Shown here: piece by piece, positions 3,201-62,544 of the stretch | Position numbering within the stretch: the first letter of the stretch is position 1 | Layout of the letters: every line of letters begins with the position of its first letter | Assembly: GCA_016219275.1 (NCBI GenBank) | Contig: JACRBM010000103.1 | Location: forward strand, 1-64,000 | Direction: 5' to 3' | Length of the DNA stretch: 64,000 bases | From: Chloroflexota bacterium | Lineage (GTDB): Bacteria; Chloroflexota; Anaerolineae; UBA4142 | Notes under the pieces: model-generated | Told to the model about the DNA's origin: nothing | Database searches by the model: none | What the model saw: only the letters and a program-made list of their open reading frames with translations | Translations under genes and position numbers: made by a program

Positions 3201-4711
3201 GGACGCCGGTCGAACTCATCCACGAGTATCAATCGCCCGACCATGAAAAAATTCTGCGCCGATTACTGACCAACTCGGCGGCGCTCACGCGGCGCGATAT
3301 TTTGAATCGTTACGCGTTTCCGGAAACCTGGCTCGACGAAACTCTGGCGCGCCTCGTCGCGGCACGCGAGATCGCGCAGATGGGCGACGAATTCTGTGAT
3401 CGTCGCAATCTCGAACAAATTCATCGCCGCACGCTGACGTTACTGCGAAAAGAAATCCAGCCGGTTTCGCTTTACGCCTACGCTGATTTTCTGACGCGGT
3501 GGCAACATTGCGATGCGCGATTGAGCGGCGCGCCAGGTCTGCGCCGAGTGATGGAGCAACTCCGCGGCATTGCGTCGTCGCGCGAGGTCTGGGAGCACGC
3601 GGCGTTGCCCGCGCGGCTCACCGATTTCGATCCCGCTGATCTCGACGCGCTGTGTCGGAGCGGCGACCTGGTGTGGGTCGCGCAAAAAAGCAGTGTCCGA
3701 TTTTTCTTGCGCGGCGAAGGCGGATTGTTCATCAATGCGGCGGACATATCCGCGTTGAGCGAACCGGCGCAAAGGGTGTACGAGTTTCTCAAAGCGGAGG
3801 GCGCATCGTTTACGACAGATTTGGAAAACGCGCTGGGAGTAAAGGATGGTTCACGCGCGTTTGGGGAATTGGTCGCGGCGGGATTGATCACGAATGATTC
3901 GCTCGACGCTCTGCAATTGGCACAGCGAATCAATCCTCCGGGGGTCGCGCGTTCCGCCGACACCTCCGCGCTCGCGGCTGAACTTGCAACGCGTCTCGCA
4001 GATGTGCCGCGCCCGCTCACGCACAGTCGTTATCGCGATGCCAAGCGTCGCGTTGCCAAACGCTTGCGCGAACAATTGCCTATTGTAAACGTGGAAGGAC
4101 GATGGTCTATCGTGCATCGCGCGACCATCCTGGGACAACCGCTGAACGATGAAGCGCGCGCGGCGAAACTCGCGCAGGTTTTGCTGTGGCGCTATGGCAT
4201 TGTGACGCGGGATTGCATCGAGCATGAGGAAATCCAAACCGCGTGGGCGTTGCTCTATCTGCACTTGCAGCGCATGGAATTGCGGGGCGAGGTTCGTCGC
4301 GGCTATTTTGTCGAAGGTCTGGCAGGCGCGCAATTCGCCTTGCCCGACGCGGTCGAGAAATTACGCGGCGCGAGCCAAACTCCGAGCGATGCGCTGATCG
4401 TCCTCAACGCGACCGACCCAGGAAATGTGTTCGGCGCGCCGCGTTTGACGCGTGTGCCGTCAACCGACCTGGTGCTGTGGCGCGGTCAGCCGGTCATCAT
4501 CGCGGAAAATAATGGCGAGGCGATCAACACGACGTCGGAGATTGAACCGTCGGTCATCGCGCGCGCGGTGGGCGTTTATCTCGCGCGGGTGGGCGCGTCG
4601 CGCCGCATGCTCGTCAAACAGTGGAACCAGGCGGATATTCTGACGAGTCCGGGCGAACCGATTCTCAAATCCCTGGGATTTTATCGCACGCCGAACGGAA
4701 TGGAAAAATAG
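230..4711 (+). CDS. lhr: Lhr-type DEAD/DEAH superfamily 2 helicase
   Basis: A large ATP-dependent nucleic-acid helicase of the Lhr family, implicated in DNA repair or RNA processing. Its 1493 residues match full-length Lhr with its C-terminal extension. Visible motifs are Walker A APTGSGKT (about residues 44-51), motif Ia (VSPLKALNND), the DEIH box, motif III (LSATI), and motifs V and VI (GTSSLELGIDIG, QRVGRSGH). The ATG at 230 is chosen because GAGGT lies just upstream; a TTG at 227 is the alternative. Three segments look like intergenic repeats inserted in frame: residues about 64-75, 224-248 and 640-649. The reading frame remains open through all of them. The gene is single and faces a convergent dehydrogenase gene across a shared terminator. 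Confidence 0.93.
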   Translation: MRDILEIFSSATREWFRETFGAPTPPQSQGWDSIQRGEHTLILAPTGSGKTLAAFLWGIDELFQKPGFLKKPGFSGVHLLYVSPLKALNNDIERNLRQPLDGIRATAERLKIDLPTLRVAVRTGDTPQTQRAAMWKHPPHILITTPESLYLMLTSPRAREMFRTTRTVIVDEIHTLCGNKRGVHLALSLERLEHLATGRVQRIGLSATIKPLDEVARFLGGQESVNSEQSAVNEQSTVQHPTSNHQPRPVTIVDAGYHKPLDLQVVTVVEDFRELPGETVWPSVVPHVLNDIRQHHTTLVFANNRRLAERTADRLNAQLDAEQREEIPPGSTEALAPGGLPRDRGIFAIGAEGPIRAHHGSMSKETRRKLEEDLKAGRLPALVGTSSLELGIDIGAVDLVVQLQSPKSVAQGLQRVGRSGHLVGQTSVGRIYATFREDLVEAAAIARGMLDGDVEQTHTPENPLDVLAQQIVAMVACETWDVSALYDRVRGAYPYRNLSRESFYSVLEMLSGKYERVRARISWDRVNGRLAALPGSRLLAITNCGTIADTGAFGVYLPDGKTKVGELDEEFIFETRVGDTFLLGSHTWRVREIADDRIVVEDAAGATPRMPFWNGDYPWRPYELGVRIGKFRREIAEKFVGATHASPLQEIEKWLRDEYTLDENSIRNLIAHAQRQLDAIGVIASDTTIVVESFQDTIGEPRLVIHSPFGGRVNGAWALALMSALRERAGVQVETQTNDDGILFRFPSTREPPVDIVQKLTAADARERILRELPNSAVFGAQFRMNAGRALLLPKARGHKRTPFWLQRLKAKDLLALVSRYENFPIIAETYRDCLRDVFDLPHLEEILNQIQNGDIRIVPIETIVPSPVASELLFNFISVYMYEWDAPKAERQMQSLALRRETLDDVLGSDAMRNLLKPEAIAETQSREQHLSPEFRARTAEELALILHELGDLTEDEIIARSAGDASAWINQLAEQGRIARVTIRNESRWTPVELIHEYQSPDHEKILRRLLTNSAALTRRDILNRYAFPETWLDETLARLVAAREIAQMGDEFCDRRNLEQIHRRTLTLLRKEIQPVSLYAYADFLTRWQHCDARLSGAPGLRRVMEQLRGIASSREVWEHAALPARLTDFDPADLDALCRSGDLVWVAQKSSVRFFLRGEGGLFINAADISALSEPAQRVYEFLKAEGASFTTDLENALGVKDGSRAFGELVAAGLITNDSLDALQLAQRINPPGVARSADTSALAAELATRLADVPRPLTHSRYRDAKRRVAKRLREQLPIVNVEGRWSIVHRATILGQPLNDEARAAKLAQVLLWRYGIVTRDCIEHEEIQTAWALLYLHLQRMELRGEVRRGYFVEGLAGAQFALPDAVEKLRGASQTPSDALIVLNATDPGNVFGAPRLTRVPSTDLVLWRGQPVIIAENNGEAINTTSEIEPSVIARAVGVYLARVGASRRMLVKQWNQADILTSPGEPILKSLGFYRTPNGMEK
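420..452. repeat. In-frame palindrome inside the helicase gene (copy A)
   Basis: Perfect 16-bp arms (AGAAACCAGGTTTCTT and its complement) around a 1-nt loop. It encodes QKPGFLKKPGF between helicase motifs I and Ia, where Lhr proteins usually need no such loop. The core CCAGGTTTCTT is shared with intergenic hairpins at 44603-44635 and 45782-45820. Confidence 0.85.
898..972. repeat. Low-complexity repeat block inside the helicase gene
   Basis: Short direct repeats GAACAGT(G/C)A are followed by tandem CCAACATCCAACATCCAACC, translated as a Ser/Asn/Gln/His/Pro-rich segment (residues about 224-248). The composition is unlike the flanking coding sequence and matches intergenic repeat text rather than helicase sequence. 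Confidence 0.65.
2147..2174. repeat. Perfect 28-bp palindrome inside the helicase gene
   Basis: GTAGGGGCGACGCA is followed directly by its reverse complement with no loop. It encodes VGATHASPL in frame (residues about 640-649). A related GTAGGGGCGAAGCAT start occurs in the gap near 49863. Confidence 0.85.
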
Positions 4712-15990: not shown

Positions 15991-16692
15991 TCACGATTTT
16001 GGTTTGCGCATCTCGGGCGGAATGTGTTCGGCATTCCATTTCTCGTACACTTTCCAGTGATAATCCAAGCCGCGTTCTTTTTCCGCCCACATCTCTTGCA
16101 AGCCGGGAATGTCCCACAAGCGCACACCGTGGCGTGTCATCGCGTCTACATAATCGCGCGCCTCGCGCATCAATTCGACCTGACGGAGGACTTGTTTTTC
16201 ATTACACTGCGGGATGACGACCACACCATCATCATCGCCCATCACAATGTCACCCGGGCGAACGTGGACGCCGCCACACTCGATTGGCGCCTGGGTTTCG
16301 CCAACCAATTTCAATCCACCGTGCGTTGGCACAACATAACGACTGAAAACCGGGAATCCCAGTTTCTTGAGCTTGGGCGTATCCTGGGCACCCCCATCAA
16401 TCACCACACCGACCGCGCCGCGCGCGCGAATGAGTTCGCAAACTTGCAGACCACAGCCGCCCATTCGTTTCGGGTCGCGCCCGCGCACGACGAGCACCTC
16501 GTCTTTGCCAATCTCGTCGAAAATGTTTTTGCAAATCGCATTGATTTCGTTGACCGTGAACGCGCGTCCGACCATTTTTACACCGGGCAACACCGGGCGA
16601 ATTTCCGGTTCCATCGGGCACACCAGTCCCTCAACGTAACCTACATCGAAACAGGAATACTGGCGGAATTTTTCCAGAATCAGGTCGCTCAT
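15991..16692 (-). CDS. RraA-like family protein
   Basis: A 233-aa protein of the RraA-like/4-hydroxy-4-methyl-2-oxoglutarate aldolase family. It carries GRAFTVNE, VLVVRGRDPKRMGGCG, RGAVGVVIDGGAQD (the family's G-x-G-x-R/D region) and PGDIVMGDDDGVVVIP. Family members are metal-dependent aldolases or decarboxylases, or regulators of RNase E. In a sugar operon an aldolase or lyase role is more likely. GGAG lies 7 nt before the chosen ATG. Confidence 0.85.
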   Translation of the reverse strand: MSDLILEKFRQYSCFDVGYVEGLVCPMEPEIRPVLPGVKMVGRAFTVNEINAICKNIFDEIGKDEVLVVRGRDPKRMGGCGLQVCELIRARGAVGVVIDGGAQDTPKLKKLGFPVFSRYVVPTHGGLKLVGETQAPIECGGVHVRPGDIVMGDDDGVVVIPQCNEKQVLRQVELMREARDYVDAMTRHGVRLWDIPGLQEMWAEKERGLDYHWKVYEKWNAEHIPPEMRKPKS

Positions 16693-16724
16693 TCCAGACT
16701 CCATCTGTAATCTACAAATCCATC

Positions 16725-17921
16725 TCATGCCCACGCACGTTTTATTTTGCTCACTGCTTCGGCGATGCTTTCCATATCTTGACGGTCGCCGAGCAAAACG
16801 TACTGGAACAACCACACCGCGCGTTCCGCTGCGTGCTCGGTCACGGGACAATCCGGCAACGTGGTTTCGTTGAACATGTCCGCGCGCGCGCGCTTGATTG
16901 CGTTCGTGCGATAAAGCGGAATGTACCCTGGACTGCACGCGCCGATTCCCTCGGCGCGCAACGCGTCGAGAAACTCGCGGCGCGGATGACCGCCGAACGC
17001 GCTCGCCGCGTACTCGGCGATGAACAGATGCCGCGCGTGCTGCGTGACGCGCGGATCGTCCGGCAACGCGTCGAGTCCACCGACTTGGGCGAGCAACTGC
17101 GCGAGGTAACGCGCGTTCGCCTCGCGCACTGGGACGTGTGCGGGATAGCGTTCGAGTTGCACGAGCAAAAGCGCGCCTTCCCACTCCGCCATGCGATAAT
17201 TCGTACCGACGATTTCGTGTTCGTACCACGCGCCGGTGCGCGTGCGTCCAACCGTGTGATACGACCAGCAAAATTCCGCGAGCGCCGCGTCATTCGTGAC
17301 GACGATGCCGCCCTCGCCGGCGGTGATATTCTTACTCGCCTGAAAACTGAACGCGCCGAGGTCGCCCAGCGCGCCGACGCGTTGCCCGCGCCATTCCGCG
17401 CCCCACGCCTGGCACGCGTCCTCGATCACGCGCACATTGTGGCGACGCGCAATATCCAAAATCACGTCCATGTTCGCCGGACGTCCGGCGAGATGCACCG
17501 GCATGATCGCTTTGGTTTTTGCAGTAATCGCAGATTCAATTTTTGTTGGGTCAAGGTTCCAACTTGTTGGTTCGATGTCCACGTACACCGGTTTCGCGCC
17601 GAGGAGCAAGATGACGTTCGAAGTGGCGATGAACGTGTACGGCGTCGTGATCACTTCGTCGCCCGGCTGGATGCCCAGTGCGCGCAACGCCATCTCAAGC
17701 GCGAGTGTGCCGTTCGGCACACCCACACCGAAACGCGCGTGCTGAAACTCGGCAAACTTTTTTTCGAACGCGGTGACCTGGGTTCCAACGTGCACGCCCC
17801 AGTTGCGCGAATGCAAAACCCGGAGCAACGCTTGTTCTTCGCGTTGATCGAACTGGGGCCATTCGGGAAATGGCTTAGTGCGGACCGGTGTGCCGCCGTC
17901 AATGGCGAGGGGTTGTGTCAT
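16725..17921 (-). CDS. DegT/DnrJ/EryC1/StrS-family PLP aminotransferase
   Basis: A 398-aa sugar aminotransferase of the DegT family. It has IDGGTPVRTKPFPEWP at the start, the cofactor region NGTLALEMAL, the acidic pair in VIEDACQAWGAEW and the PLP lysine in FSFQASKNITAGEGG. Such enzymes transfer an amino group between an amino acid and a keto sugar or inosose. In a catabolic operon with a Gfo/Idh dehydrogenase and two NagB-like proteins, it might work in the deaminating direction, which is inference. Confidence 0.92.
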   Translation of the reverse strand: MTQPLAIDGGTPVRTKPFPEWPQFDQREEQALLRVLHSRNWGVHVGTQVTAFEKKFAEFQHARFGVGVPNGTLALEMALRALGIQPGDEVITTPYTFIATSNVILLLGAKPVYVDIEPTSWNLDPTKIESAITAKTKAIMPVHLAGRPANMDVILDIARRHNVRVIEDACQAWGAEWRGQRVGALGDLGAFSFQASKNITAGEGGIVVTNDAALAEFCWSYHTVGRTRTGAWYEHEIVGTNYRMAEWEGALLLVQLERYPAHVPVREANARYLAQLLAQVGGLDALPDDPRVTQHARHLFIAEYAASAFGGHPRREFLDALRAEGIGACSPGYIPLYRTNAIKRARADMFNETTLPDCPVTEHAAERAVWLFQYVLLGDRQDMESIAEAVSKIKRAWA

Positions 17922-17996
17922 ATCGAATCGTCAAAGGATGAAGATTTTCGCATGAACAAATCATCGCTTTCATCCTTCATCCTTCCATTTTCATCC

Positions 17997-51251: not shown

Positions 51252-51267
51252 TTAGTCGCGCGCGCGC

Positions 51268-51313
51268 CGTACACGACGAGGCGCGGCAGTTCTGCCGCGC
51301 CTCGTCGTGTACG
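51268..51313. repeat. Perfect 22-bp-arm hairpin between signalling cluster and TlpA-like gene
   Basis: CGTACACGACGAGGCGCGGC with its full complement and a 2-nt loop. It has no T-run but could fold strongly in the RNA and separate the two minus-strand units. Confidence 0.9.
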
Positions 51314-51319
51314 CATGCG

Positions 51320-51709
51320 TCACCACGCTTTTTTGATTTCCTGGATCGCGAGCGTTGTCAGACGCCGATATGTTCGTTGCGGCGGCAGAATCACCGCCAA
51401 CACAAACGGTCGTTCGTTGAGTGTAAGGTATCGGCAGACCAAGCGCGAACGGTCGCTGATGACGATGGATACTTCGTCCACTTCCGATAGTCCCAGGCGC
51501 GCTTGTGTTTGCACGACGAAATCTTTGACGAGCGTGACCATCGCCGCGACCGTCGCGGCATCGTACGGCGCCGGCGATGGCGCGACCGCGACGGGCAAGC
51601 CATCTTCGCTTGCCAAGACCGACACGGCAAAGTGTCCTGCTTGATTCATCTGCGCGAGAATTTCTTCGAAGGATGCTGGTTCAGCCGCGTAGGTGGGTGG
51701 TTTCGTCAT
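51320..51709 (-). CDS. Roadblock/LC7-like protein, last gene of the GTPase cluster
   Basis: A 129-aa protein with the Roadblock pattern VSVLASEDGLPVAVA. Such proteins are small regulators of MglA-type GTPases. GGAG is 6 nt before the chosen ATG. The C-terminal half (ISDRSRLVCRYLTLNERPFV) differs from the neighbours. Its exact role is unknown. Confidence 0.7.
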   Translation of the reverse strand: MTKPPTYAAEPASFEEILAQMNQAGHFAVSVLASEDGLPVAVAPSPAPYDAATVAAMVTLVKDFVVQTQARLGLSEVDEVSIVISDRSRLVCRYLTLNERPFVLAVILPPQRTYRRLTTLAIQEIKKAW

Positions 51710-51749
51710 GGCACGCTCCAATAAAGTTTGAGATCAGTCCGCATCTAGA

Positions 51750-52127
51750 TTATGCCATCGCTTTGCGAACGCCATCCGCCGCGCGTTCCATTTGCAAAAA
51801 GACGAGACCCAGTTTGGAGTCTTTGCGCGCGACCACGCTGAGCACGGCTTCCGGTCCGGCGTTCATAATGATCGTGTACCCGTCGCCGCCTTCGACGAAG
51901 ACGCGCGCGAGATGACCGTGCTCAAATTCCGCCGTCGTCTGTTCGCCGAGCGCGAGCATGGCTGCCGCCATCGCCGCGACGCGCCGTTCTTCGACGCTCT
52001 GCGGTAACTCGGATGCAATTGCAAACCCGTCTACGCTGATGATGCCCGCGCCCATCACGCCCGGCGTGGTGGATTGCAAAGTGCGAAGTAGTTCGGTTAA
52101 CTGCGTTGTTAGATCTTTCTCAGCCAT
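51750..52127 (-). CDS. Roadblock/LC7 protein (MglB-like)
   Basis: A 125-aa Roadblock/LC7 domain with GAGIISVDGFAIASELP and the later LSVVARKDSKLGLVF. MglB-like proteins act as GTPase-activating partners of MglA. AGGAGG precedes its ATG, inside the last codons of the upstream gene whose stop it abuts. It is 0.6 kb from the MglA-type gene. Confidence 0.88.
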   Translation of the reverse strand: MAEKDLTTQLTELLRTLQSTTPGVMGAGIISVDGFAIASELPQSVEERRVAAMAAAMLALGEQTTAEFEHGHLARVFVEGGDGYTIIMNAGPEAVLSVVARKDSKLGLVFLQMERAADGVRKAMA

Positions 52128-52688
52128 CTATGCCTCCTGGTTGCTTTGAATACTCGGATTTGACGCGTTGGCGCGAATGCAGTACAAGCACGCGCGTCCG
52201 GCGATCATCTCTACTGCTTCTTGATGTTCCAAACCGACCAAGCGCATATTCGCTTCGGAAATGGCGATTGTGTCGGTCCCCGTACTGCGGCACGCGATAT
52301 TGACGACCGGATCCGGCATGTCTTCACGGACCCCGTGATGCACGATGCACAAGGGGTGCAGCGCGCTGCCGCCACCTTTGGTCAGGTGGCGATTATAATT
52401 CGCGACGAGTTTTTTCGCTTCGGGACTCCATTCGGAAATCTCGGCGGTGAACTCTTTGAACGGACATTGTTTCAAGATCACGAACTGATCGCCGGCAAGT
52501 TTGCCCGGCGCGAGTTCCATATTCTCCCTCCCCAGTTCAAACCCTGCCAATCTTGCGAGCGTAGTTGTTCCATTAAGCGATTGGGCGATGGCTTTGCCGG
52601 TCTGTACTAGTCCCAGGAATCGCGTGGTGGTGATGATGCTGTGGATGGCTGCCCACAGAGTCCAATAAATTCGATTACTTGTCAGCAT
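52128..52688 (-). CDS. Unrecognised Cys-rich protein in the GTPase cluster
   Basis: A 186-aa protein I cannot assign. Five cysteines (C75, C114, C133, C167, C170) sit in short motifs KQCPFKEF, HPLCIVHHGV, NIACRS and ACLYC, suggesting metal or iron-sulfur binding or a redox sensor. It lies between the MglA-type GTPase gene and a Roadblock gene, with no gap before the latter, so it is likely a component of the same system. Confidence 0.6.
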   Translation of the reverse strand: MLTSNRIYWTLWAAIHSIITTTRFLGLVQTGKAIAQSLNGTTTLARLAGFELGRENMELAPGKLAGDQFVILKQCPFKEFTAEISEWSPEAKKLVANYNRHLTKGGGSALHPLCIVHHGVREDMPDPVVNIACRSTGTDTIAISEANMRLVGLEHQEAVEMIAGRACLYCIRANASNPSIQSNQEA

Positions 52689-52719
52689 AGTTCATTTCAC
52701 GGCTTTCCGTATGCGTATG

Positions 52720-53304
52720 TCAGATGCGCGTTTGGACTTGGAGCGCTACGGCGTTGATCGCGGCTTTGAGCGTTTCGAAGACGCCCAGTCCTTGCGCGGC
52801 GGCGGCGGGAAAACACGGCGCGCCGTTCAGACCCAGGTTGAGCCGCAACGCGTCGAGCGTCAGCGTATTCGGCAGATCGCGTTTATTGAACTGGTAGATG
52901 ATCGGCACGTGCGCCGACGCCAATCCCAAGTCGCGCAAGTTGGTGTGTAAATTCTCCAGGGTTTCGCAATTCTCGCTCATGCGCTCCGTTTGTGAATCGG
53001 CGACGAACACGACGCCGTCACATCCTTGCAAGACGACCTTGCGCGTCGCGAGGTAATACGTTTGCCCGGGCACGGTGTAGAGTTGAAACTTGGGCTTGAG
53101 TCCTTTGATGGGACTCAATTCGATCTGCAGAAAATCGAAAAAAATGGTGCGATCCTCGCGCGTTTTCAACGAGACCAAATCGCTGCGTAAGGTCGGGTTG
53201 GTCTTGGCGTGAACGTACTGCAGGTTCGTCGTCTTGCCGCTCATCGCCGGACCATAGTAGACGATTTTGAGATTGAGTTCGCGCGCTTTCCAATTGATGA
53301 ACAT
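52720..53304 (-). CDS. MglA-type small GTPase
   Basis: A 194-aa Ras-like GTPase of the MglA family. P-loop GPAMSGKT (residues 18-25), G3 TVPGQ (77-81) and G4 NKRD (140-143). MglA-GTP marks a cell pole or controls motility and polarity in other bacteria; in Chloroflexota the output is unknown. It is surrounded by Roadblock proteins that could act as GAP or exchange factors. Confidence 0.93.
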   Translation of the reverse strand: MFINWKARELNLKIVYYGPAMSGKTTNLQYVHAKTNPTLRSDLVSLKTREDRTIFFDFLQIELSPIKGLKPKFQLYTVPGQTYYLATRKVVLQGCDGVVFVADSQTERMSENCETLENLHTNLRDLGLASAHVPIIYQFNKRDLPNTLTLDALRLNLGLNGAPCFPAAAAQGLGVFETLKAAINAVALQVQTRI

Positions 53305-53329
53305 CGTTGAGCGAATTCCCGGGATGGAG

Positions 53330-53827
53330 TCAGTTCGATTTCCAGAGACTGTCCAACTCGCTCGCGAGCGATGCCGCGAAATCGTTTGGCATCTCCGCGA
53401 GGGGCGCGCCGGGGACCATCAATTGCATTTCCCATTCGGGCGCCATCTTGGCGAGCGCCTCGACGGCTTTGCCGCTGAACAAGCGCACGAGACCGATTTG
53501 GACGTTGACACTGAACACGACGGCGAGCAGAAAACTCGTGCCAATCGTGTTGAGGTGCAAGTTCTGTTCGTCGCCTTGGTGGAATAACACTTGAAAGTGC
53601 CGACGCTCGCCGAGCAAGCGCGCCATCTCGGCGGTGGCGGCGACGTTGCTGGCGACGAGCGCGGCGAGCACCGTCGCATCGAGTCCTTTGGTGCGTCCGT
53701 GCGCGGCGAGGAGTTGCCCGCTGATATCCGCCAGCAGCGCGCACCGCGCGTTCGTTTTGCTGATCAGTTCGGAGAGCACTTTCTCGACGCGTTCAGAGTG
53801 TTCTTCGGATAGGGCAAGTCTTGACAT
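53330..53827 (-). CDS. Roadblock/LC7-like protein
   Basis: A 165-aa protein with a Roadblock domain, longer than the single-domain types: ARCALLADISGQLLAAHG and the SFLLAVVFSVNVQIGLVRLF strand region. It precedes the MglA gene by 25 nt, the common MglB-MglA order. An AAGGAT-like site precedes its ATG. Confidence 0.85.
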   Translation of the reverse strand: MSRLALSEEHSERVEKVLSELISKTNARCALLADISGQLLAAHGRTKGLDATVLAALVASNVAATAEMARLLGERRHFQVLFHQGDEQNLHLNTIGTSFLLAVVFSVNVQIGLVRLFSGKAVEALAKMAPEWEMQLMVPGAPLAEMPNDFAASLASELDSLWKSN

Positions 53828-53847
53828 TCAGATGATCCTTAGTTGCC

Positions 53848-55107
53848 CTAACCCGCGCGGCGCGCGCGCAAGCGTTCGATCGCGGCTTGGAGACTGGCTT
53901 GCATACGCGCGAGGGCTTCCGCCAATTCGCCAATTTCGTCATGACTGGTCACTTCGATCTTGGCGTCCAGCTCGCCGAGACTGATGCGGTCGGCGACGCT
54001 GCTCAAGCGGGTGAGGGGCACGGTGATCGCGCGTGACAAGGCGAGCGCGACGATGATCGCGACGATCAAGGCGATGCCGGAAATACCGATGGCAAGATAC
54101 CCGGTGTTGTCTGCCACTGCGGTATAGGTCGAAAGCGGCGCAGCAACGACATAGCGCCACGGTTTGTTGGTGAGGGTAGCCATCGCCGCGCGGTGCCGCG
54201 CATCGCTCAGGTCTACCGCCGTTTCTAGCGTAGTCGTGCCCTTGCTTTGCGTTGCGGCGGCGATTTCAGGCAAGGGTTGCACCTCCACCTGGGTTGCCGC
54301 GTTTTTGCCAAAGCGTTTCTCGCTCACGAGTTTTTTCTCGATCTCCGCTGGCACCGGCGCTACGGCGCGATACCGGAGCATGGTGAGCAATGTAGGATTG
54401 ATCTTGCTGCGACTATCGCCGAGACGAATTCCATTCTCATCCAGGAGCATGCCAAAGCTGCCGGTACCCGCCGCGCCCAAATCGTCCTCGATAAAGTCTT
54501 CTAACGCGTGGAGCGACAAGCGACTACGCACGACGCCGACGATGGCGCCGTTTTCATCTCTGACGGGTGCGCTAAAGAAGATGGCGGGTCGGTCGGTGAT
54601 GAGTGAGATGGAGGGATCGGAAATGTACGACGCGCCTTTGAGCGCTTCGGAAACGTACAACCGTGAACTCACATCGGTACCCACATCGGCATCGGCGGAG
54701 GACAGCTCGATCACGCCAAAGCGGTTTACCACGGCGACAGTTTCATACTCGGGCGCCTTGGACGCGGCGGCTTTGAGCGCGGCGAGCGCATACGCTTTGT
54801 TCGCGGAATCATTCGGCGATTTCATAAACCGCGCAATTTCCGGTAATTGCGCCATGACGTTGACAAATTGGACGCCTTCCGTCAACGCCTCATCAATGCG
54901 TTCGGCGGTCGTTTGGCTAACGGCGATCAGACGCGCATCCGCTTCGCCGAGCAAACTGTTGCGTCCGATCACGACGACAAAGATACCGGTGATAATGACC
55001 GGCACAATCGCGAGCAAGCTGAAAAACAAAGTCAGTTTGGGACGAATTTTCCACGTAGACACGTCCCACAGAGACACGTTCGATTTGGCAGGGGCTTCGG
55101 CGATCAT
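53848..55107 (-). CDS. dCache-HAMP receptor without an output domain
   Basis: A 419-aa membrane sensor. Transmembrane segment at about residues 25-49, extracytoplasmic dCache domain, a second segment at about 335-360 and a HAMP domain (SSVADRISLGELDAKIEVTS). It ends after a short coiled coil with no methyl-accepting, kinase, cyclase or phosphodiesterase domain. The position between Roadblock genes suggests it passes its signal to the GTPase system. AGGAGGT precedes the ATG. Confidence 0.9.
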   Translation of the reverse strand: MIAEAPAKSNVSLWDVSTWKIRPKLTLFFSLLAIVPVIITGIFVVVIGRNSLLGEADARLIAVSQTTAERIDEALTEGVQFVNVMAQLPEIARFMKSPNDSANKAYALAALKAAASKAPEYETVAVVNRFGVIELSSADADVGTDVSSRLYVSEALKGASYISDPSISLITDRPAIFFSAPVRDENGAIVGVVRSRLSLHALEDFIEDDLGAAGTGSFGMLLDENGIRLGDSRSKINPTLLTMLRYRAVAPVPAEIEKKLVSEKRFGKNAATQVEVQPLPEIAAATQSKGTTTLETAVDLSDARHRAAMATLTNKPWRYVVAAPLSTYTAVADNTGYLAIGISGIALIVAIIVALALSRAITVPLTRLSSVADRISLGELDAKIEVTSHDEIGELAEALARMQASLQAAIERLRARRAG

Positions 55108-55147
55108 TCGACCTCCTTGATCTGGATGATAGATGTGATCAGATTAG

Positions 55148-55621
55148 TTACAACTTGCGAATAGCATCGAGCATGATTTGTTGAAAGCGCAATCGTTTGG
55201 CGTCGTCGCGCACTTCGGCGCTGATATCTTCCACGAGTTCGGCGATGCGGTCGCGCGGAAACTGCTCACGCGTTTCGCCGAGCGCGGCAATTTCGTCTTC
55301 GATGATGATGCTCGCCATCGGTCCGATCACGCGGGCGAATTCACGCGCCACCCAGTCGAAGAACTGGGCGTCAACGGTCAATTGCGGCGCGGCAAGGTTT
55401 CCGGTCGCGGGTTCAAGCAAGCCGGCTTGGCGCAATTGCTCGACGGATCGCGCGGCGAGCGCCGCGTCTATTCCCAGGTTCTGGGCGATTTCGGTAACGG
55501 TGCGCGCGCCGTTCACTTGCGCCAGCATCCGCCACGCCTCGGGTTTCAGATTCACTTCACTGTTTAGTTCGCGGCTGGACAGTTTGAAAACGACGTCAGT
55601 CATAGCATTGGGGTCAACCAT
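55148..55621 (-). CDS. Winged-helix plus DUF8082-like protein
   Basis: A 157-aa protein: an N-terminal winged-helix-like region (TVTEIAQNLGIDAALAARSV) of the kind seen with DUF4388, then a region resembling DUF8082 (FARVIGPMASIIIEDEIAAL, ending LRFQQIMLDAIRKL). Such modules accompany Roadblock and PATAN proteins. AGGAG is about 9 nt before the ATG. Confidence 0.65.
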   Translation of the reverse strand: MVDPNAMTDVVFKLSSRELNSEVNLKPEAWRMLAQVNGARTVTEIAQNLGIDAALAARSVEQLRQAGLLEPATGNLAAPQLTVDAQFFDWVAREFARVIGPMASIIIEDEIAALGETREQFPRDRIAELVEDISAEVRDDAKRLRFQQIMLDAIRKL

Positions 55622-55708
55622 CGCGGGTCGCTCCTACAAATTGGTTGGGAATCTGGCAAAGGTGGCTTGGGCTTGCCTCGCCAGGTTCCGGACGTTGGCA
55701 TCGAGAGT

Positions 55709-56215
55709 TTATGGGAACCGCGCCCATGCGCCTGACGCGGGTGTGTTGTTTTCGTCCGTCGCGTCTACTTGCGTGTGGCGTTGGGCGGCGCGCTGCAACG
55801 CGCTTTGCACCGCAGCGTTCGCTTCGTACGTCGGCGCGGCGACGTTCACAGACATTCGCAACAACGCCCAATCTACCGGCGGCGCGCAGAGGACGAACGC
55901 AAACGCGTTGCCGAGGTCGCGCATAAAAATGCCGCCGCGTTCGCCGCGCAGTTCCAGTTCGAGCGATTTCTTGTCGCGCGCGTGAAACGCCGCCAACAGT
56001 TGCGCGAGGTGCGCGCCCAACTCGGCGGCTTGGATTTTATTCCACTCGTCGGCGACATACGCGCCCAAAATTTCGCCGCTTTCATCGCAGATGAATCCTT
56101 CGGACGCGCCGGGCACATCGCGCAGCGCGTTCAAGAAAACGCCATTCGCGATGTTGAGTTCTTGCAGGGCGAATCCAGCCCACTTGTCCGAGCGTAGTTT
56201 TTCGATCAGTGGCAT
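55709..56215 (-). CDS. Roadblock-like paralogue (1)
   Basis: A 168-aa protein that starts MPLIEKLRSDKWAGFALQEL and carries a Roadblock-like core GFICDESGEILGAYV. It is a clear paralogue of the next gene upstream in the cluster, with matching RGGIF and GNAFAFVLC stretches. The C-terminal tail from about residue 135 is unique and Gln/Asn-rich. Tandem duplication is likely. Confidence 0.75.
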   Translation of the reverse strand: MPLIEKLRSDKWAGFALQELNIANGVFLNALRDVPGASEGFICDESGEILGAYVADEWNKIQAAELGAHLAQLLAAFHARDKKSLELELRGERGGIFMRDLGNAFAFVLCAPPVDWALLRMSVNVAAPTYEANAAVQSALQRAAQRHTQVDATDENNTPASGAWARFP

Positions 56216-56252
56216 AACGAATCCCCGAAAAATTTTTCGCGTAACGCGTGCG

Positions 56253-56699
56253 CTAGTCCAACCGCCCGCCGGCGGTGATAATATGCGCGGCGCGTAAACT
56301 CGCCGCTTCGTACGCGGCGGCGGCAACGTTCATGGACATTCGCAATATCGCCCAGTCCAGGTTTGGCTCGCAAAGAACGAATGCAAACGCGTTGCCGAGG
56401 GCGCGCACGAAAATACCTCCGCGTTCGCAACGCAATTCTATCTCGCGCGGTTGGTTGCCCTGGGTTTGAAATGTCGCCAGCAATTGCGCGAGTTGTGCGC
56501 TCAACTCGGCGGCTTGGGTTTTGTTCCACTCACCGGCGACATACGCGTCCTGAATTGCGCCGTCTTCCGCGCAGATAAATCCTTGGGTCACGCCCACCAG
56601 ATTGCGTAGCGCGTTCAGGAAAGCGTCTTTGGCAATATTGAGTTCTTGCGAGGCAAGACCAGCCCACACATCCGAATGATCTTTTTCGAACAGCGGCAT
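56253..56699 (-). CDS. Roadblock-like paralogue (2)
   Basis: A 148-aa tandem paralogue of the preceding entry, starting MPLFEKDHSDVWAGLASQEL, with GFICAEDGAIQDAYV and CERGGIFVRALGNAFAFVL. The two share the order of motifs and differ in the C-terminus. Likely GTPase regulators that could pair as a heterodimer. Confidence 0.75.
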   Translation of the reverse strand: MPLFEKDHSDVWAGLASQELNIAKDAFLNALRNLVGVTQGFICAEDGAIQDAYVAGEWNKTQAAELSAQLAQLLATFQTQGNQPREIELRCERGGIFVRALGNAFAFVLCEPNLDWAILRMSMNVAAAAYEAASLRAAHIITAGGRLD

Positions 56700-56717
56700 A
56701 ACGACTCTCCGAATTCT

Positions 56718-57734
56718 TTACGCGCTAAATAGTTCTGGCGCGGCGGACAGTAAACCGATTTCCTCGAGGCGCTGATTCGATTGCGTCTTGAGGTCTGCGA
56801 ACGCGGCGGATAACCCGGGTATCCAGTTCGCGTCCCCAGCCGTCATCAATTTGCGGACCGCCGACGCGAATCCGGCGCACAAGCCCTGATTGAATTCATT
56901 GACGGACACCGCGCCCGTGAACGTGATTTGCCCGGCGCGATAATCGAACTCGCCGGCGAACGGATCGAGGAATGGATACGCGGTGGCTTGCTCGATGCAC
57001 GCGCGTTTGAATGCCGTCCGAAAATGCTCGGTTGCGCCATCGGCATCCACTACGCGCTCTATCGTTTGAAAGACGTGTTGCCACAAGGCGAATGTCGCCT
57101 GGCGCGCGAAACTTGACGCGAGGTCGGCGTGATGGCTGTAGATGCTCGCCAGATCGGAGCGGTAGACGGTGAAGAGCGCCGGTCGTTGTGTTGCCATTTC
57201 AGTAATCTGCGCGAGCTGGTCGGCGCCGGAAACAATCGCGCCACCGTTCATCAGGACGCACTCGACTAGGACACCTTCTTGCAGATAGACTGTCGCCGTG
57301 TCGGGACTGCCGGTAAAGCGGATTTCAATATAGCCACTGTGCGCTTCGTCTTGCAATTTCGCGACAAGTTTGTCGAGATGCGTAAAGTCGCTCGCCAAAT
57401 CTTTGTACAGCGGTTCGCCTTGCGCCAAGCCGCCCAACAACGCGACCAAATCGGAATCCAGCCCCGCGACGTGAATCGCGCCGTCCTTTTCTTTGGCTTT
57501 AAGCGCAATCGCTTCGGCGGCGGCGATGCCGACGCGTTTTGCGCCGGGCGTTTCTTCGATGGCGCTGACGCTGTTGCCCTGATCCATCAAGACCAGACCT
57601 TCGTACTCCCACGCCGCTACGCGCACATAGCCGGTAAACTGGGATGTTTTCAATTCGCTCAACAACGCGTCGAACTGTGTAAACGAGGTATTGAGGTTTT
57701 CGTAAACAGATTTACCTTTGGGTAGCAAAATCAT
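56718..57734 (-). CDS. Two-repeat PATAN-like protein
   Basis: A 338-aa protein with two similar repeats: FDALLSELKTSQFTGYVRV followed by EGLVLMDQGN, and LDKLVAKLQDEAHSGYIEI followed by TATVYLQEGVLVE. These resemble DUF4388 (PATAN) units. The C-terminal half, residues about 200-338, is not recognised. I start at the ATG at 57734; a longer frame into the upstream gene is out of place. Confidence 0.65.
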   Translation of the reverse strand: MILLPKGKSVYENLNTSFTQFDALLSELKTSQFTGYVRVAAWEYEGLVLMDQGNSVSAIEETPGAKRVGIAAAEAIALKAKEKDGAIHVAGLDSDLVALLGGLAQGEPLYKDLASDFTHLDKLVAKLQDEAHSGYIEIRFTGSPDTATVYLQEGVLVECVLMNGGAIVSGADQLAQITEMATQRPALFTVYRSDLASIYSHHADLASSFARQATFALWQHVFQTIERVVDADGATEHFRTAFKRACIEQATAYPFLDPFAGEFDYRAGQITFTGAVSVNEFNQGLCAGFASAVRKLMTAGDANWIPGLSAAFADLKTQSNQRLEEIGLLSAAPELFSA

Positions 57735-57744
57735 CCGATGTTCC

Positions 57745-58404
57745 TCAGTGAGATTCGGGAGTGAGTATGGCGAGCAACTGGCGACGGATCGGTTCGACCC
57801 CGACGCGTCCTTCCAACCAACATCCGAGGTAGTCGTCCCCTTTTTTGACGAGTATAATTTTTTCCGTGGGCGAGGTGGCGAGCAGGTATTCCCAATTGCC
57901 GCGTTCCCACAGCGCGCTGACGGCTTGCGCGATTTTGCCGGCTTGCGCGAGCAGGGCGGCATCGGTCGGGACGATTGTATCGGACGAGGTAGCGCGCGGC
58001 GCGCCCTCGGAGGTGACGAGCATGGTCGTCCGCACGCCGCGTTGTTTGCCTAGCGCGCGCAACGCGGTTTCGATTTCGATCAGGCGCGCGGCTTGCGCTT
58101 CGTCCAGTCGGCGCAGTCCTTCGAGGACGAGCGCATTCCAGGGCGTGTTAATCGTGCGCTGTTCCCACGCCGGTGGATCGAGTTCGACGTGAAATTCGGC
58201 GTCCTGCCAGCGGAGCATTTCGTACACCGCGTCTTCGCCGCGTAACCCGCGCGCGTCGGCGTCCACGATTTCGCCGGCGGCGATGAACAAGGCGCCGCGG
58301 TGCGTCGCGCCGGACAGCGCGATGCGCGCCGGGCGTCCTTCGGTGCAGTGCAGTTGAATGAGATTGGGTAAACTCAGGTCGCGAACATTACCGGTGAGTG
58401 GCAT
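57745..58404 (-). CDS. DUF4388 (PATAN) protein
   Basis: A 219-aa protein whose N-terminus GNVRDLSLPNLIQLHCTEGR, GALFIAAGEIVDADA and EDAVYEMLRWQDAEFHVEL is a classic DUF4388. The C-terminal part is a Roadblock-like or unassigned sensor (VSALWERGNWEYLLATS). PATAN proteins are output or adaptor modules in bacterial GTPase and response-regulator systems. Confidence 0.85.
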   Translation of the reverse strand: MPLTGNVRDLSLPNLIQLHCTEGRPARIALSGATHRGALFIAAGEIVDADARGLRGEDAVYEMLRWQDAEFHVELDPPAWEQRTINTPWNALVLEGLRRLDEAQAARLIEIETALRALGKQRGVRTTMLVTSEGAPRATSSDTIVPTDAALLAQAGKIAQAVSALWERGNWEYLLATSPTEKIILVKKGDDYLGCWLEGRVGVEPIRRQLLAILTPESH

Positions 58405-58416
58405 GCGTATGCTCCA

Positions 58417-59340
58417 TTAACGCGAGGCATGTTTGTGTGCGGCGTCTGCCATCGCGTTGAAAAATTCGGACACGCCGTCGCCGGTGAGACAACTGGTCTC
58501 GAAAAACGGCGCGCCCCATGCTGCGGCGAGCGCGCGCCCTTCATCCATCGGCACGTCGCGCGCCAAATCCGTTTTGTTTGCGGCGATGACGAGCGGCACG
58601 CGCGGCAGAATCGCGCGGACTTCGTCGTGCCACTTGAGCAGCTGCGCGAAGGACGCGCGGTCGTTCGTCGCGTACACCAATCCGACGGCGCGACTGCCGC
58701 GATAAAACGCGCGGCGCGTAAACGCGAATTGATCCTGCCCGCTCACATCCCACACCACCAAACGCCGCGTGCGATTGTGGTGCGCGATGTCGTACAGATG
58801 AAAATCCACGCCGAGCGTCATCACGCGCGCGGCTTGGAATTTGCCGGTGCAGAGCCGGCGAATCAAGGTGGTCTTGCCCACGCTGCCGTTGCCGCCGAGC
58901 GTAATCTTGAGCGGCAAAGCGGGTTCGGGTTCTGGCGCGGGCGGCGGCTCGTCGCCGGCGCACGCCTGCTTGAGCGTGAACGCGTCTTGAATCACGCGGC
59001 GCAGTTCGATCAGCGGAAAGGGCTTGGTCAAATAGTTGTACACGTTGAGGCGTTGCGCGGCTTGTTGCACTTGTTCCGAACCGTACGCGGTCATCAGCAC
59101 GGTGCGCGTGTCGGGTGATTTGTCTTTGAGTTGGCGGATCAATTCCAAGCCCGTGATGCCCGGCATCCGCAGATCGGTCACGACTACATCCCATCTGCCG
59201 GTTTCGATTTTGGCGAGCGCCTCTTCGCCGGACGCCGCCGTTTCGATGTGATAATCCAACCCCAGGTCGGTCAAACTTTCTTTCATCAAGAACGCGACGG
59301 TTGCTTCGTCTTCGACCAACAGGACACGTTTCGGGGACAT
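58417..59340 (-). CDS. Receiver domain fused to a Ras/Rab-like small GTPase
   Basis: A 307-aa fusion. The receiver domain (residues about 5-125) has VEDEATV, phospho-acceptor D56 in VVVTDLRMPG, T84 and K106. A Pro-rich linker (about 131-143) joins it to a complete small GTPase: P-loop GGNGSVGKT (149-157), G3 WDVSGQ with D198 and Q202, G4 NKTD (255-258) and G5 ETSC. Receiver phosphorylation could thus switch a GTPase directly. It heads the twelve-gene cluster, which has its own promoter-like box. Confidence 0.93.
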   Translation of the reverse strand: MSPKRVLLVEDEATVAFLMKESLTDLGLDYHIETAASGEEALAKIETGRWDVVVTDLRMPGITGLELIRQLKDKSPDTRTVLMTAYGSEQVQQAAQRLNVYNYLTKPFPLIELRRVIQDAFTLKQACAGDEPPPAPEPEPALPLKITLGGNGSVGKTTLIRRLCTGKFQAARVMTLGVDFHLYDIAHHNRTRRLVVWDVSGQDQFAFTRRAFYRGSRAVGLVYATNDRASFAQLLKWHDEVRAILPRVPLVIAANKTDLARDVPMDEGRALAAAWGAPFFETSCLTGDGVSEFFNAMADAAHKHASR

Positions 59341-59402: not shown

Positions 59403-59467
59403 TTCGATTGAGTGCGCGTGTGCGTTACGTAGAATTACGATTGGCTACCGGTTACGTAAAAAATAAT

Positions 59468-59491
59468 CGGGGCGTTCGACTGAACGCCCCG
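59468..59491 (-). terminator. Intrinsic terminator after the OmpR-type regulator
   Basis: CGGGGCGTTC / GAACGCCCCG with a 4-nt loop, followed on the minus strand by ATTATTTTTTA. It ends the regulator's transcript before the GTPase cluster. Confidence 0.8.
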
Positions 59492-59553
59492 ACCGGGCAA
59501 GAAGCAGAAAAACTTTATGCGGTTTCGGTTTGAACGCGTTGGCGCGCGCGGGT

Positions 59554-60366
59554 TTATCCGACGAAGCGGTACCCTTTCCCGCGTACATTCAAAATGATTT
59601 TCGGGTGCTGGGGATTGTCGCCCAGTTTCTGGCGTAAGCGTTGCAAGTGGACGCGCACGATCGGGCGCGCATCCACCTCGGCGAGGTCGTACCCTTGCGC
59701 GGCATGCACCAGTTCGCGCGCGGTGACAACGCGCTCGGCGTGCGTGGCGAGATAATCGAGCAAGTCGAATTCGGTCGGCGTCAAATCTACCGGCAGATCG
59801 CCCAACGCGACCAAACGCTTTTGGCGGTCGAGCGTCAGATGCTGGGTTTGTGCGAACCGCTTGCCGTTCGGCGTATCCAGGGCGGCGGCGGTTTGATCTT
59901 CGTGTTTCAACGCGCGTAACGTGTTTTCGAGATTGTTGATCAACTGTTGCCGGCGGAGGGCATCCTGCCGTTTTGCCAAGCCGCGTTCGACGCTCGCGAC
60001 AATCTGGGTCATACTTGCCGGTTTGGTCAAATAATCGAACGCGCCTTGCCGCAACGCGGTGATAACGGAATCGAGCGCGGCGTAGCCGGTCATCATGATC
60101 ACGACGGTTTGCGGCGCGTGCGCGTGAATGCGCGTGAGCAGACCGATGCCGTCTATGGGTCCCGGCATTTTGATGTCGAGCAACGCCAGATCGAACTCGG
60201 TTTCTTGGCACGCGTGCCATGCCTGCGCGGAATCGGCGGCGCAGTAGACGCTCAGTCCGTGACTTTCGAGCGTGTCTTTGATAACAGTGCGAATCGTCGC
60301 TTCATCATCCGCGAGAAGAATTTTTTCCGGGCGGGTAGTTTTTTTTGTAAGAGGGACAGATTTCAT
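59554..60366 (-). CDS. OmpR/PhoB-family response regulator
   Basis: A 270-aa regulator: receiver with LADDEAT, phospho-acceptor in LALLDIKMPG and YLTKP; a helical linker (about residues 125-160); a winged-helix DNA-binding domain with LTPTEFDLLDYLA, RPIVRVHLQRLRQKLGD and VRGKGYRFVG. No cognate kinase is adjacent. A promoter with tandem 11-bp direct repeats lies upstream, suggesting self-regulation. Confidence 0.93.
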   Translation of the reverse strand: MKSVPLTKKTTRPEKILLADDEATIRTVIKDTLESHGLSVYCAADSAQAWHACQETEFDLALLDIKMPGPIDGIGLLTRIHAHAPQTVVIMMTGYAALDSVITALRQGAFDYLTKPASMTQIVASVERGLAKRQDALRRQQLINNLENTLRALKHEDQTAAALDTPNGKRFAQTQHLTLDRQKRLVALGDLPVDLTPTEFDLLDYLATHAERVVTARELVHAAQGYDLAEVDARPIVRVHLQRLRQKLGDNPQHPKIILNVRGKGYRFVG

Positions 60367-60449
60367 ACGAGCCAAATCGTCAAGGCGCTTTCTTTACCCA
60401 ACGCGCGGGAGACCGGTTAGCGTCCGTTGCGGTGGGTGAGATAAGGTTG

Positions 60450-60574: not shown

Positions 60575-61015
60575 ATGGCAATGCGAAGGTATCTCGTCCG
60601 GGATTGGATGACGCCGGATCCGGTGACGATTGATCCCCATACAACTTTACCCGAAGCGCACCGCTTGATGAAAGAGTGTTGCATTCGGCGTTTGCCGGTC
60701 GTCGAGCACGGGCAACTCGTCGGCATTGTCACGCTGGGCGATGTGCGCGAGGCGTCTCCATCGAGTGCAAGTTCGTTGAGCATCTACGAACTGACGTACC
60801 TCATTGGGCGGTTGACGGTGGGGCAAATCATGACGCGCGATCCGATCACCGTCGCGCCCGATTTTTCCGTTGAAGCCACGGCGCGCTTGATGCTCGAACA
60901 CAAAATCGGCGGCTTGCCGGTCGTGGACGGCGAACGCGTCGTCGGGATTATTACCGAGTCGGATATTTTTCGTTTGTTGGTCAACGAAGGCGAACTCCGG
61001 CGAGTGTTCGCTTAA
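60575..61015 (+). CDS. CBS-domain pair protein
   Basis: A 146-aa protein made only of two CBS domains: VRDWMTPDPVTIDPHTTLPE / RRLPVVEHGQLVGIVTLGDV and IMTRDPITVAPDFSV / GGLPVVDGERVVGIITESDI. It likely binds adenine nucleotides as a small sensor. It faces the signalling cluster across a divergent gap and lies upstream of the gltD-like gene. Confidence 0.92.
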   Translation: MAMRRYLVRDWMTPDPVTIDPHTTLPEAHRLMKECCIRRLPVVEHGQLVGIVTLGDVREASPSSASSLSIYELTYLIGRLTVGQIMTRDPITVAPDFSVEATARLMLEHKIGGLPVVDGERVVGIITESDIFRLLVNEGELRRVFA

Positions 61016-61074
61016 GCAAGGCTTCTCGGCGAGCGAAGACGCTCGCCTTTCTTGATGAAGCGGGGGAGAGAGAG

Positions 61075-62544
61075 ATGGCAAAGAAACTCGATCGCACGGG
61101 CGATGTAGACATCAATCGCAAAGAACGTTTGAAAATTCCGCGCCAATCCGTGCCAAAGCAAAAGCCGGATGTGCGCGTCCATAATTTTGACGAAGTATAC
61201 CTGGGTTTTAACGAAGAGACCGCCCAGACCGAAGCGTCGCGCTGTTTGCAATGTCCGGAGGAATCCGGTTGCAAGCTCGGCTGTCCGTTGCACAACGATA
61301 TTCCGCGCGCCATGTGGCACATCTCGCGCGGCGAATTTTTGCAAGCCGCCGAGGTCTATCGCGAAACGAGCAACCTGCCGGAAATTTGCGGTCGCGTGTG
61401 CCCACAAGAAAAATTGTGCCAGGGTTCGTGCGTCGTCGGCAAACGCGATTATCCGGTCTTTCTCGGCAAGCTCGAATACTTTGTCTCGGATTATCAACGC
61501 CGCACGACCGGCATCCCCAAGCCCAAACTCGCGCCGCCGACCGGCAAACGTGTCGCCGTCGTCGGCTCCGGTCCCGCGGGTCTCGCGGTCGCGGAAGAAT
61601 TGATCAAGCGCGGTCACGCGGTCACGATCTTTGAGATTCTGCCGTTCCCCGGCGGCGTGATGGTGTACGGCATTCCCAGTTTCAAACTCGCCAAGCAAGT
61701 CATCGCCGATAAATGCAAATTCCTCGAAGAACTCGGCATCGAGTTCAAGTGCAACACGACCATCGGCAAAGACAAGACGGTGGACGATTTATTCAAGGAA
61801 GGTTACGGCGCAGTGTTCCTCGGCACCGGCGCGTGGACGCCGACGAAACTCAATTTGCCCGGCGAAGACCTCCAGGGCATTTACATGGCGACCGAGTATC
61901 TCGTGCGCGGCAACTTGCCGCCGGACTATTTGCCGGATGGAATGCAGGAACGCCCCGAATCTGGCAAGCACATCGCGATCATCGGCGGCGGTGACACCGC
62001 GATGGACTGTGTGCGGACGGCGCGCCGTCTGCAAATCCAGTCGGGTATCACCGATGGCACGGTCGTGGACTATTATCGCCGCACCGAAAAAGAAATGCCA
62101 GGCAAGGCGGAAGAACGCACGAACGCGAATGAAGAAGGCATCCAGTTCGAATTCCTGGTCGCGCCGGTGCGCTTCATCGGCGACGAGTTGGGGCACGTGC
62201 GCCAGATGGAATTGATTCGCATGACGCTCGGAGAACCGGACGCGTCCGGTCGCCGCCGCCCCATCGAAGTCAAGGATTCGAATTTTATTGTGGATGCGGA
62301 CAATGTGATTTGCGCGCTCGGCTACAACCAGGATCGCTTGATCGAAAAAACGACGCCGGGTCTCAAGGTGGACAAGTGGGGTTGCTTCATCGCGGATAAG
62401 CAAACGGGCGCGACGAGCAAGCCAGGCGTTTACGCCGGCGGTGATGCGGTGACCGGCGCAGACTTGGTCGTCACCGCGATGGTTGCCGGGCGTCGCGCGG
62501 CGCTCGCGATAGATCAGTACTTGCGCGACCTTGGAAAGAATTAG
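61075..62544 (+). CDS. gltD: GltD-like NAD(P)H-dependent oxidoreductase
   Basis: A 489-aa glutamate-synthase small-subunit-type flavoprotein. N-terminal Fe-S cysteines in RCLQCPEESGCKLGCP and CGRVCPQEKLCQGSC, FAD motif VVGSGPAGLAVAEEL, NAD(P) motif IIGGGDTAMDC and C-terminal GVYAGGDAVTGADLVV. No large subunit is adjacent, so it may be GltD or a related homotetrameric or NfnB/SudA-type enzyme. Confidence 0.9.
   Translation: MAKKLDRTGDVDINRKERLKIPRQSVPKQKPDVRVHNFDEVYLGFNEETAQTEASRCLQCPEESGCKLGCPLHNDIPRAMWHISRGEFLQAAEVYRETSNLPEICGRVCPQEKLCQGSCVVGKRDYPVFLGKLEYFVSDYQRRTTGIPKPKLAPPTGKRVAVVGSGPAGLAVAEELIKRGHAVTIFEILPFPGGVMVYGIPSFKLAKQVIADKCKFLEELGIEFKCNTTIGKDKTVDDLFKEGYGAVFLGTGAWTPTKLNLPGEDLQGIYMATEYLVRGNLPPDYLPDGMQERPESGKHIAIIGGGDTAMDCVRTARRLQIQSGITDGTVVDYYRRTEKEMPGKAEERTNANEEGIQFEFLVAPVRFIGDELGHVRQMELIRMTLGEPDASGRRRPIEVKDSNFIVDADNVICALGYNQDRLIEKTTPGLKVDKWGCFIADKQTGATSKPGVYAGGDAVTGADLVVTAMVAGRRAALAIDQYLRDLGKN

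Follow-up and report, generated by a model that had tools for sequence, protein, structure and literature searches.

It is poorly known how bacterial small GTPases obtain extracellular signals, and a locus that co-encodes a receptor, a putative scaffold, a predicted GTPase-activating protein (GAP) and a GTPase raises the question of how such a receptor, which carries no recognisable output domain, could reach its GTPase. The locus comprises twelve minus-strand genes (g01 to g12) in a 64,000-nucleotide stretch of Chloroflexota bacterium DNA (contig JACRBM010000103.1, positions 1 to 64,000), referred to here as the window. A sequence-only reading of this DNA had proposed a receptor-to-GTPase pathway in which the receptor simply lacks the usual output domain. 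We put at about even the chance that the region is a single operon encoding a kinase-free receptor-to-GTPase relay. The argument turns on the following elements.

53848..55107, minus strand: g07, receptor with two transmembrane segments, an extracytoplasmic dCache_1 domain and HAMP (Pfam, transmembrane peaks)
53851..53913, minus strand: C-terminal tail of g07, residues 399-419, LARMQASLQAAIERLRARRAG, proposed docking element
56718..57734, minus strand: g03, signature protein with two tandem PATAN-like repeats and a helical C-terminal part
55709..56215, minus strand: g05, Roadblock-like protein conserved in the cassette, 66% identical to g04
55148..55621, minus strand: g06, winged-helix (wHTH) N-terminus and conserved C-terminal region (weak wHTH Pfam matches, alignment)
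53330..53827, minus strand: g08, MglB-type Roadblock protein, predicted GAP (Robl_LC7 above cut-off)
52720..53304, minus strand: g09, MglA GTPase of Group 1 type (PDB-set match, alignment)
51320..51709, minus strand: g12, Roadblock-like protein mostly adjoining MglA (Robl_LC7 14 bits, weak)

The receptor ends at a conserved HAMP-linked tail

Pfam detected dCache_1 (61.5 bits) and HAMP (53.6 bits) in g07, and the same scan found no kinase, methyl-accepting chemotaxis protein (MCP) or GGDEF domain. We defined a receptor class by its C-terminus, namely an end within about 5 residues of the motif RMQxSLxxAIERLRxR after HAMP. The g07 protein ends in this way, and the tail receptors encoded at g03 loci stop 0-5 residues past the tail. 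When 56 such receptors were compared, mean pairwise identity was 21% for the sensor, 46% for HAMP and 64% for the 19-residue tail. The sensors belong to dCache_1, dCache_2, Cache_3-Cache_2, sCache types, 4HB_MCP, TarH, CHASE3 and other families, and no kinase, GGDEF or other output domain was found in any of the 56; neither these relatives nor g07 has an MCP signalling domain, which sets them apart from methyl-accepting chemotaxis proteins. We also considered that g07 might be a truncated or decayed chemoreceptor or kinase, and rejected this because the tail receptors share one end point. We therefore assign g07 to a cross-phylum receptor class that ends at a cassette-specific HAMP-linked tail, in place of the earlier picture of a receptor merely missing its output.

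To assess how specific the tail is, we used a profile covering the last 80 residues. Eight cassette genomes each held exactly one protein, the cassette receptor, that scored 102-113 bits (values that are partly inflated), and the next-best HAMP protein reached at most 67 bits; in four relatives without the cassette no HAMP protein exceeded 61 bits. Three genomes not used in building the profile (G006, G012 and G013) still gave 102-109 bits. The same picture was obtained in 17 of 19 genomes from other lineages, the receptors of G692 and G679 being divergent, and a few of the 19 have a second, weaker tail protein. Matches to a regular expression for the C-terminal tail were confined to cassette loci among 16,380 open reading frames (ORFs). 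The gene set, its conservation, the tail and the restriction of the tail to the cassette can thus be read from the sequences themselves, and the tail, at about 20 residues, offers a concrete, testable interface.

Several further features of the receptors were observed. A zinc-ribbon (MJ0042-like) precedes the first membrane helix at the N-terminus of 12 of the 56 (for example L193:8390-9799), and at one locus the tail receptor is present in two DNA-identical tandem copies (L059:2732-3514 and 3608-4390), which may reflect recent duplication or an assembly artefact. Genes for SBP_bac_3-type binding proteins lie 3' of the receptor in two relatives. As regards amino-acid sensing by g07, the tryptophan and aspartate of the dCache amino-acid motif were not evident by eye.

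The tail travels with g03, and MglA forms a second unit

A scan of GTDB genomes with g03 yielded 61 loci in Chloroflexota (Anaerolineae, Dehalococcoidia, Tepidiforma), Desulfobacterota, Acidobacteriota, KSB1/Caldithrix and Coatesbacteria. The phylum labels are those of the database records, some of them loose, and many loci come from metagenome-assembled genomes, in which absences at the genome level depend on completeness. A receptor with the HAMP-tail region is encoded at 58 of the 61 loci, and a g05 homologue at 38. Approached from the GTPase, 35 MglA loci from the class gave a complementary result: the tail was present at 5/5 loci with g06 and at 0/30 without it (Fisher 3e-6, a p value that ignores phylogeny and overstates independence), the receptor being absent from 30 of the 35. 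Conversely, no MglA match at E 1e-10 was found in eleven core-bearing genomes of Dehalococcoidia type. One of them is the complete genome of Tepidiforma flava, an isolate, whose operon encodes a receptor, a small Roadblock-like protein, g03, a Roadblock-like protein and a PATAN-wHTH fusion.

Because the core occurs without MglA in these eleven genomes and the tail tracks g06 among MglA loci, we take the constant unit to be the receptor tail plus g03, usually with a Roadblock protein and g06; judged by gene content, the GTPase is not a constant part of it. MglA, MglB and g12 make up a second unit that is joined to the core in many lineages. The two units are reunited in several phyla, in differing gene orders and nearly always on one strand. 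Of the pathway proposed in the sequence-only reading, what stands is that the operon joins a receptor, Roadblock/PATAN proteins and GTPases. That unrelated sensors carry the same tail across at least five phyla points to a modular platform for sensing, with a logic comparable to that of chemoreceptors and two-component sensors. T. flava could serve as a model: it has been cultured, its genome is complete, and it carries the minimal core.

Gene order and operon boundaries

The remaining elements of the locus are as follows.

58417..59340, minus strand: g01, response-regulator receiver (REC) fused to a Ras/Rab-like GTPase (Pfam)
57745..58404, minus strand: g02, PATAN (DUF4388) with a C-terminal Roadblock-like domain (Pfam)
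56253..56699, minus strand: g04, Roadblock-like paralogue of g05 (Robl_LC7 13 bits, weak)
52128..52688, minus strand: g10, four-cysteine protein in a variable slot (no family)
51750..52127, minus strand: g11, Roadblock/LC7 (Robl_LC7 64 bits)
59554..60375, minus strand: OmpR-type response regulator upstream of g01 (Pfam scan, synteny)
59465..59494, minus strand: terminator-like hairpin with a T run, between the response regulator and g01
51267..51313, minus strand: strong perfect long hairpin (20-bp) after g12 (z -7.1)

All twelve ORFs, spanning 51320-59340, were confirmed on the minus strand, with gaps from g01 to g12 of 12, 10, 18, 37, 87, 40, 20, 25, 31, 0 and 40 bp. Since these gaps are short, a T-run hairpin lies upstream and a strong hairpin lies downstream, the block looks like one operon, and the hairpin 3' of g12 is its probable end. 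The upstream OmpR-type response regulator was considered as a further member in the window genome and rejected, as 213 bp containing the terminator-like site separate it from g01.

Five further genomes of the family (G002, G006, G010, G012 and G013) share the gene order, at about 45-80% protein identity; they represent three other genera, G006, G012 and G013 being congeneric. The order runs REC-Ras, PATAN-Roadblock, g03, Roadblock, g06, receptor, MglB, MglA, a variable slot, g11 and g12, except that in one of the five the contig is truncated and ends after the receptor. The same-strand twelve-gene cluster of the sequence-only reading is borne out, as is the conserved synteny that it had named as its own check. 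In four relatives REC-Ras is directly preceded by genes for an OmpR-type regulator and a GAF-PAS histidine kinase. The window genome keeps the regulator, and its kinase orthologue lies at 16348-17961 on another contig (G000:C53), where a g12 paralogue directly follows it (L203:8325-10471). The slot after MglA holds V4R in two relatives, an SCP2-like gene in a third (there after g11) and, in a fourth, a g10 relative together with DctP and corrinoid/UroD genes.

GltD-like (glutamate-synthase-like) and CBS-domain genes flank the cluster in the window (60575-62544) and in relatives, whose flanks (L070, L091, L065) also hold genes resembling a three-subunit 2-oxoacid:ferredoxin oxidoreductase.

Proteins of the cluster

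The receiver of g01 (Response_reg 91 bits) keeps D56, T84 and K106, and its GTPase domain (Ras 121 bits) has all five G motifs in place. Group 1 Rup GTPases are defined by a G3 motif without Gln (PMC4316618); the g01 G3 motif, WDVSGQ, retains Gln and so falls outside that group. Orthologues are 60-71% identical across five family genomes. The REC-Ras fusion is restricted to the family of the window genome, and other lineages have a stand-alone REC. A second REC-Ras operon in the window genome (L094:7763-11037, G000:C67) encodes PATAN-Roadblock, a protein of 421 aa that includes a Roadblock-like segment, another of ~95 aa and a REC-Ras 42% identical to g01; it contains no MglA, and the same set is found in G012 (L093) and G001 (L135).

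PATAN proteins had been predicted at this locus, and two were recovered. In g02, DUF4388 scored 61.5 bits and the Roadblock-like domain, at 20 bits for Robl_LC7, fell slightly below the cut-off of 23. In g03 the DUF4388 match is weak; its predicted structure (predicted local distance difference test, pLDDT, 86.8) has two tandem PATAN-like repeats, which align to each other (2e-7), and a helical C-terminal part. A structure search with g03 gave only unspecific, sliding-clamp-like matches (TM about 0.12), and no useful match came from searching solved structures with g03 and g10 profiles.

Five Roadblock-type proteins had also been proposed. Two of these, g08 and g11, exceed the Robl_LC7 cut-off; g04 and g12 match weakly, and the assignment of g05 rests on its 66% paralogy with g04. 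The g11 protein is 80-83% identical across the family. Homologues of g06 outside the family are mostly fused behind a PATAN domain. Described earlier as DUF8082-like, g06 gave no DUF8082 match in Pfam and NCBIfam scans, in which the presence of a DUF8082 model was not established.

The search of the PDB set aligned g08 with Myxococcus xanthus MglB at 86 bits. Since this is below the NCBIfam cut-off of 200 for the MglB equivalog NF052242, we class g08 no further than as an MglB-type Roadblock protein. Full-length similarity to M. xanthus MglA (214 bits) was found for g09, which carries the G3 motif TVPGQ and aligns R52 and Q81 with M. xanthus R53/Q82; g08 lies 25 bp upstream, the coupling to MglB expected of a Group 1 MglA. 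By these marks g09 is a genuine MglA, and the REC-GTPase, MglA-type GTPase and dCache-HAMP receptor of the sequence-only reading (g01, g09 and g07) are all upheld by Pfam or PDB-set matches. Elsewhere in the window genome a histidine kinase precedes a receiver-Roadblock (MglB-like) fusion (L204:1556-4134, G000:C11), and a similar set precedes MglA in G013 (L072).

The Cys-rich protein, g10, has four cysteines and, as predicted, no known family: no Pfam match was found up to E 1, V4R and TRAPP included. The best structural matches of its model are Bet3, TPC6 and DmpR (weak, Z at most 5.5), and we tentatively assign it a Bet3/V4R-like fold. A phmmer search for V4R slot genes outside the family produced no further matches. 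Relatives of g10 also occur in G010 outside GTPase clusters, as a tandem pair (L127:5649-6813) and singly (L128:9093-9626), with the four cysteines kept in all.

A proposed relay and its alternatives

In the relay that we propose, an extracytoplasmic ligand would bind the dCache domain and shift the HAMP stalk, so that the C-terminal tail alters its contact with a cytoplasmic scaffold of g03 (tandem PATAN), Roadblock-like proteins and g06. We infer that the tail docks on this PATAN/Roadblock/wHTH core and that the core gates MglA: the scaffold would change the nucleotide state of g09 via the MglB-type GAP g08 and the extra Roadblock proteins, and MglA-GTP would then position or activate a downstream effector. 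A second input to the same complex could come from a histidine kinase phosphorylating the REC-Ras protein g01, and a small molecule inside the cell is probably reported by g10 and by the V4R and SCP2 proteins that take its slot. The scheme draws support by analogy from conservons, where a sensor would act through a Roadblock GAP and a regulator on a GTPase, and from PATAN adaptors that link photoreceptors to PilB1.

Four points weigh against this relay. Some scores of the tail model are inflated in that the scored sequences also built it, and four of the five tail-positive MglA loci come from one family. Eleven genomes have the core without MglA, so signalling to MglA cannot be what the tail does everywhere. 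Finally, the tail could be conserved for dimerisation. In the latter case it would be a mere coiled-coil extension of HAMP, and the receptor would serve as a decoy or ligand sink that contacts no other product of the operon directly. HAMP domains dimerise, and the tail follows HAMP and has a helix-like composition; however, other HAMP proteins of the same genomes lack the tail, which is more conserved than HAMP itself and whose presence tracks g06, and we consider this explanation very improbable. A more serious competitor, still somewhat doubtful, is that two modules share a transcript and signal separately, MglA/MglB/g12 being one switch and receptor/g03/g05/g06 a membrane-to-DNA path whose transcription regulator, the winged helix of g06, is gated or released by the receptor. 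Either module is found without the other, and g06 has a wHTH-like segment, PATAN-fused in other lineages. Yet that wHTH match is weak, such segments can be protein-protein modules, and the two modules are repeatedly reunited, in varied orders and nearly always on one strand.

The similarity of g09 and g08 to Myxococcus MglA and MglB also invites comparison with an ordinary MglA polarity system of the kind known from Myxococcus and Bdellovibrio, one that would control pili or movement over surfaces and take its Frz-like input from the receptor. Cyanobacterial PATAN proteins bind PilB1 (PMC9090330), PilT is present in 28 of 49 cassette genomes, and the window genome has a PilB/PilC-like pair and CpaF-like ATPases. 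Against this, neither PilT nor FlhA turned up in searches of the window genome and of the five cassette-bearing members of its family, the cluster holds no pilus gene and no motility gene (the latter as the sequence-only reading had stated), and Tepidiforma has the core with neither MglA nor PilT. T. flava is flagellated (PMC10284905). We regard a polarity system as improbable, and retraction of type IVa pili and a flagellum as unlikely outputs here, although a pilus link is possible in other cassette lineages because of the distribution of PilT. Next to a PilB/GspE-like ATPase and T2SSF in the window genome, we observed an operon for ThiF/E1-like, JAB-like, 84-aa (possibly ubiquitin-like) and 144-aa proteins (L129:4477-12295, G000:C43).

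Comparison with known systems

The docking relay would make these proteins an undescribed cross-phylum receptor class, whose sole output is a HAMP-linked docking tail that joins interchangeable sensors to a PATAN/Roadblock scaffold; in many lineages this scaffold would drive a Ras-like GTPase, with neither a kinase nor a chemotaxis array involved. For this broader proposal the evidence is evenly poised. No description of HAMP-tail receptors or of the g03 cassette was found in the open-access literature, subscription papers being outside the scope of the search, and the core arrangement, recurring in at least five bacterial phyla, appears to be undescribed so far. Proximity of MglA/MglB to PATAN genes was already noted by Wuichet and Sogaard-Andersen (PMC4316618, citing Makarova 2006); the section consulted mentions neither a receptor nor a conserved tail, and neither g03 nor a cassette shared across phyla.

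A close parallel is offered by the actinobacterial conservons, or actinobacterial G protein systems (AGPS; CvnA-D), which likewise place a membrane sensor in one operon with a Ras-like GTPase, a Roadblock GAP of MglB type and small regulators; sensor input is thought to reach the GTPase through its regulators (PMC4316618, PMC13343842). The conservon sensor is histidine-kinase-like (CvnA) and CvnC is a separate family, whereas the window operon has a kinase-free receptor, central PATAN proteins and a Myxococcus-type GTPase. The locus is not itself a conservon: g07 consists only of dCache_1 and HAMP, with no CvnA-like sensor, and Pfam and NCBIfam scans of the window proteins found no CvnC-type family. 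With the M. xanthus MglA/MglB/RomR and Frz system the window shares the MglA/MglB sequence matches and a REC-domain partner. In Myxococcus, however, the partner genes are scattered and the input is chemosensory, while in the window one cluster encodes both receptor and GTPase, REC forms part of a second GTPase protein, and no PilT was found in the genome. Cyanobacterial PATAN-REC regulators such as PixE similarly use PATAN as a protein-protein adaptor downstream of a sensor, but they bind the pilus motor PilB1 and have no GTPase operon (PMC9090330).

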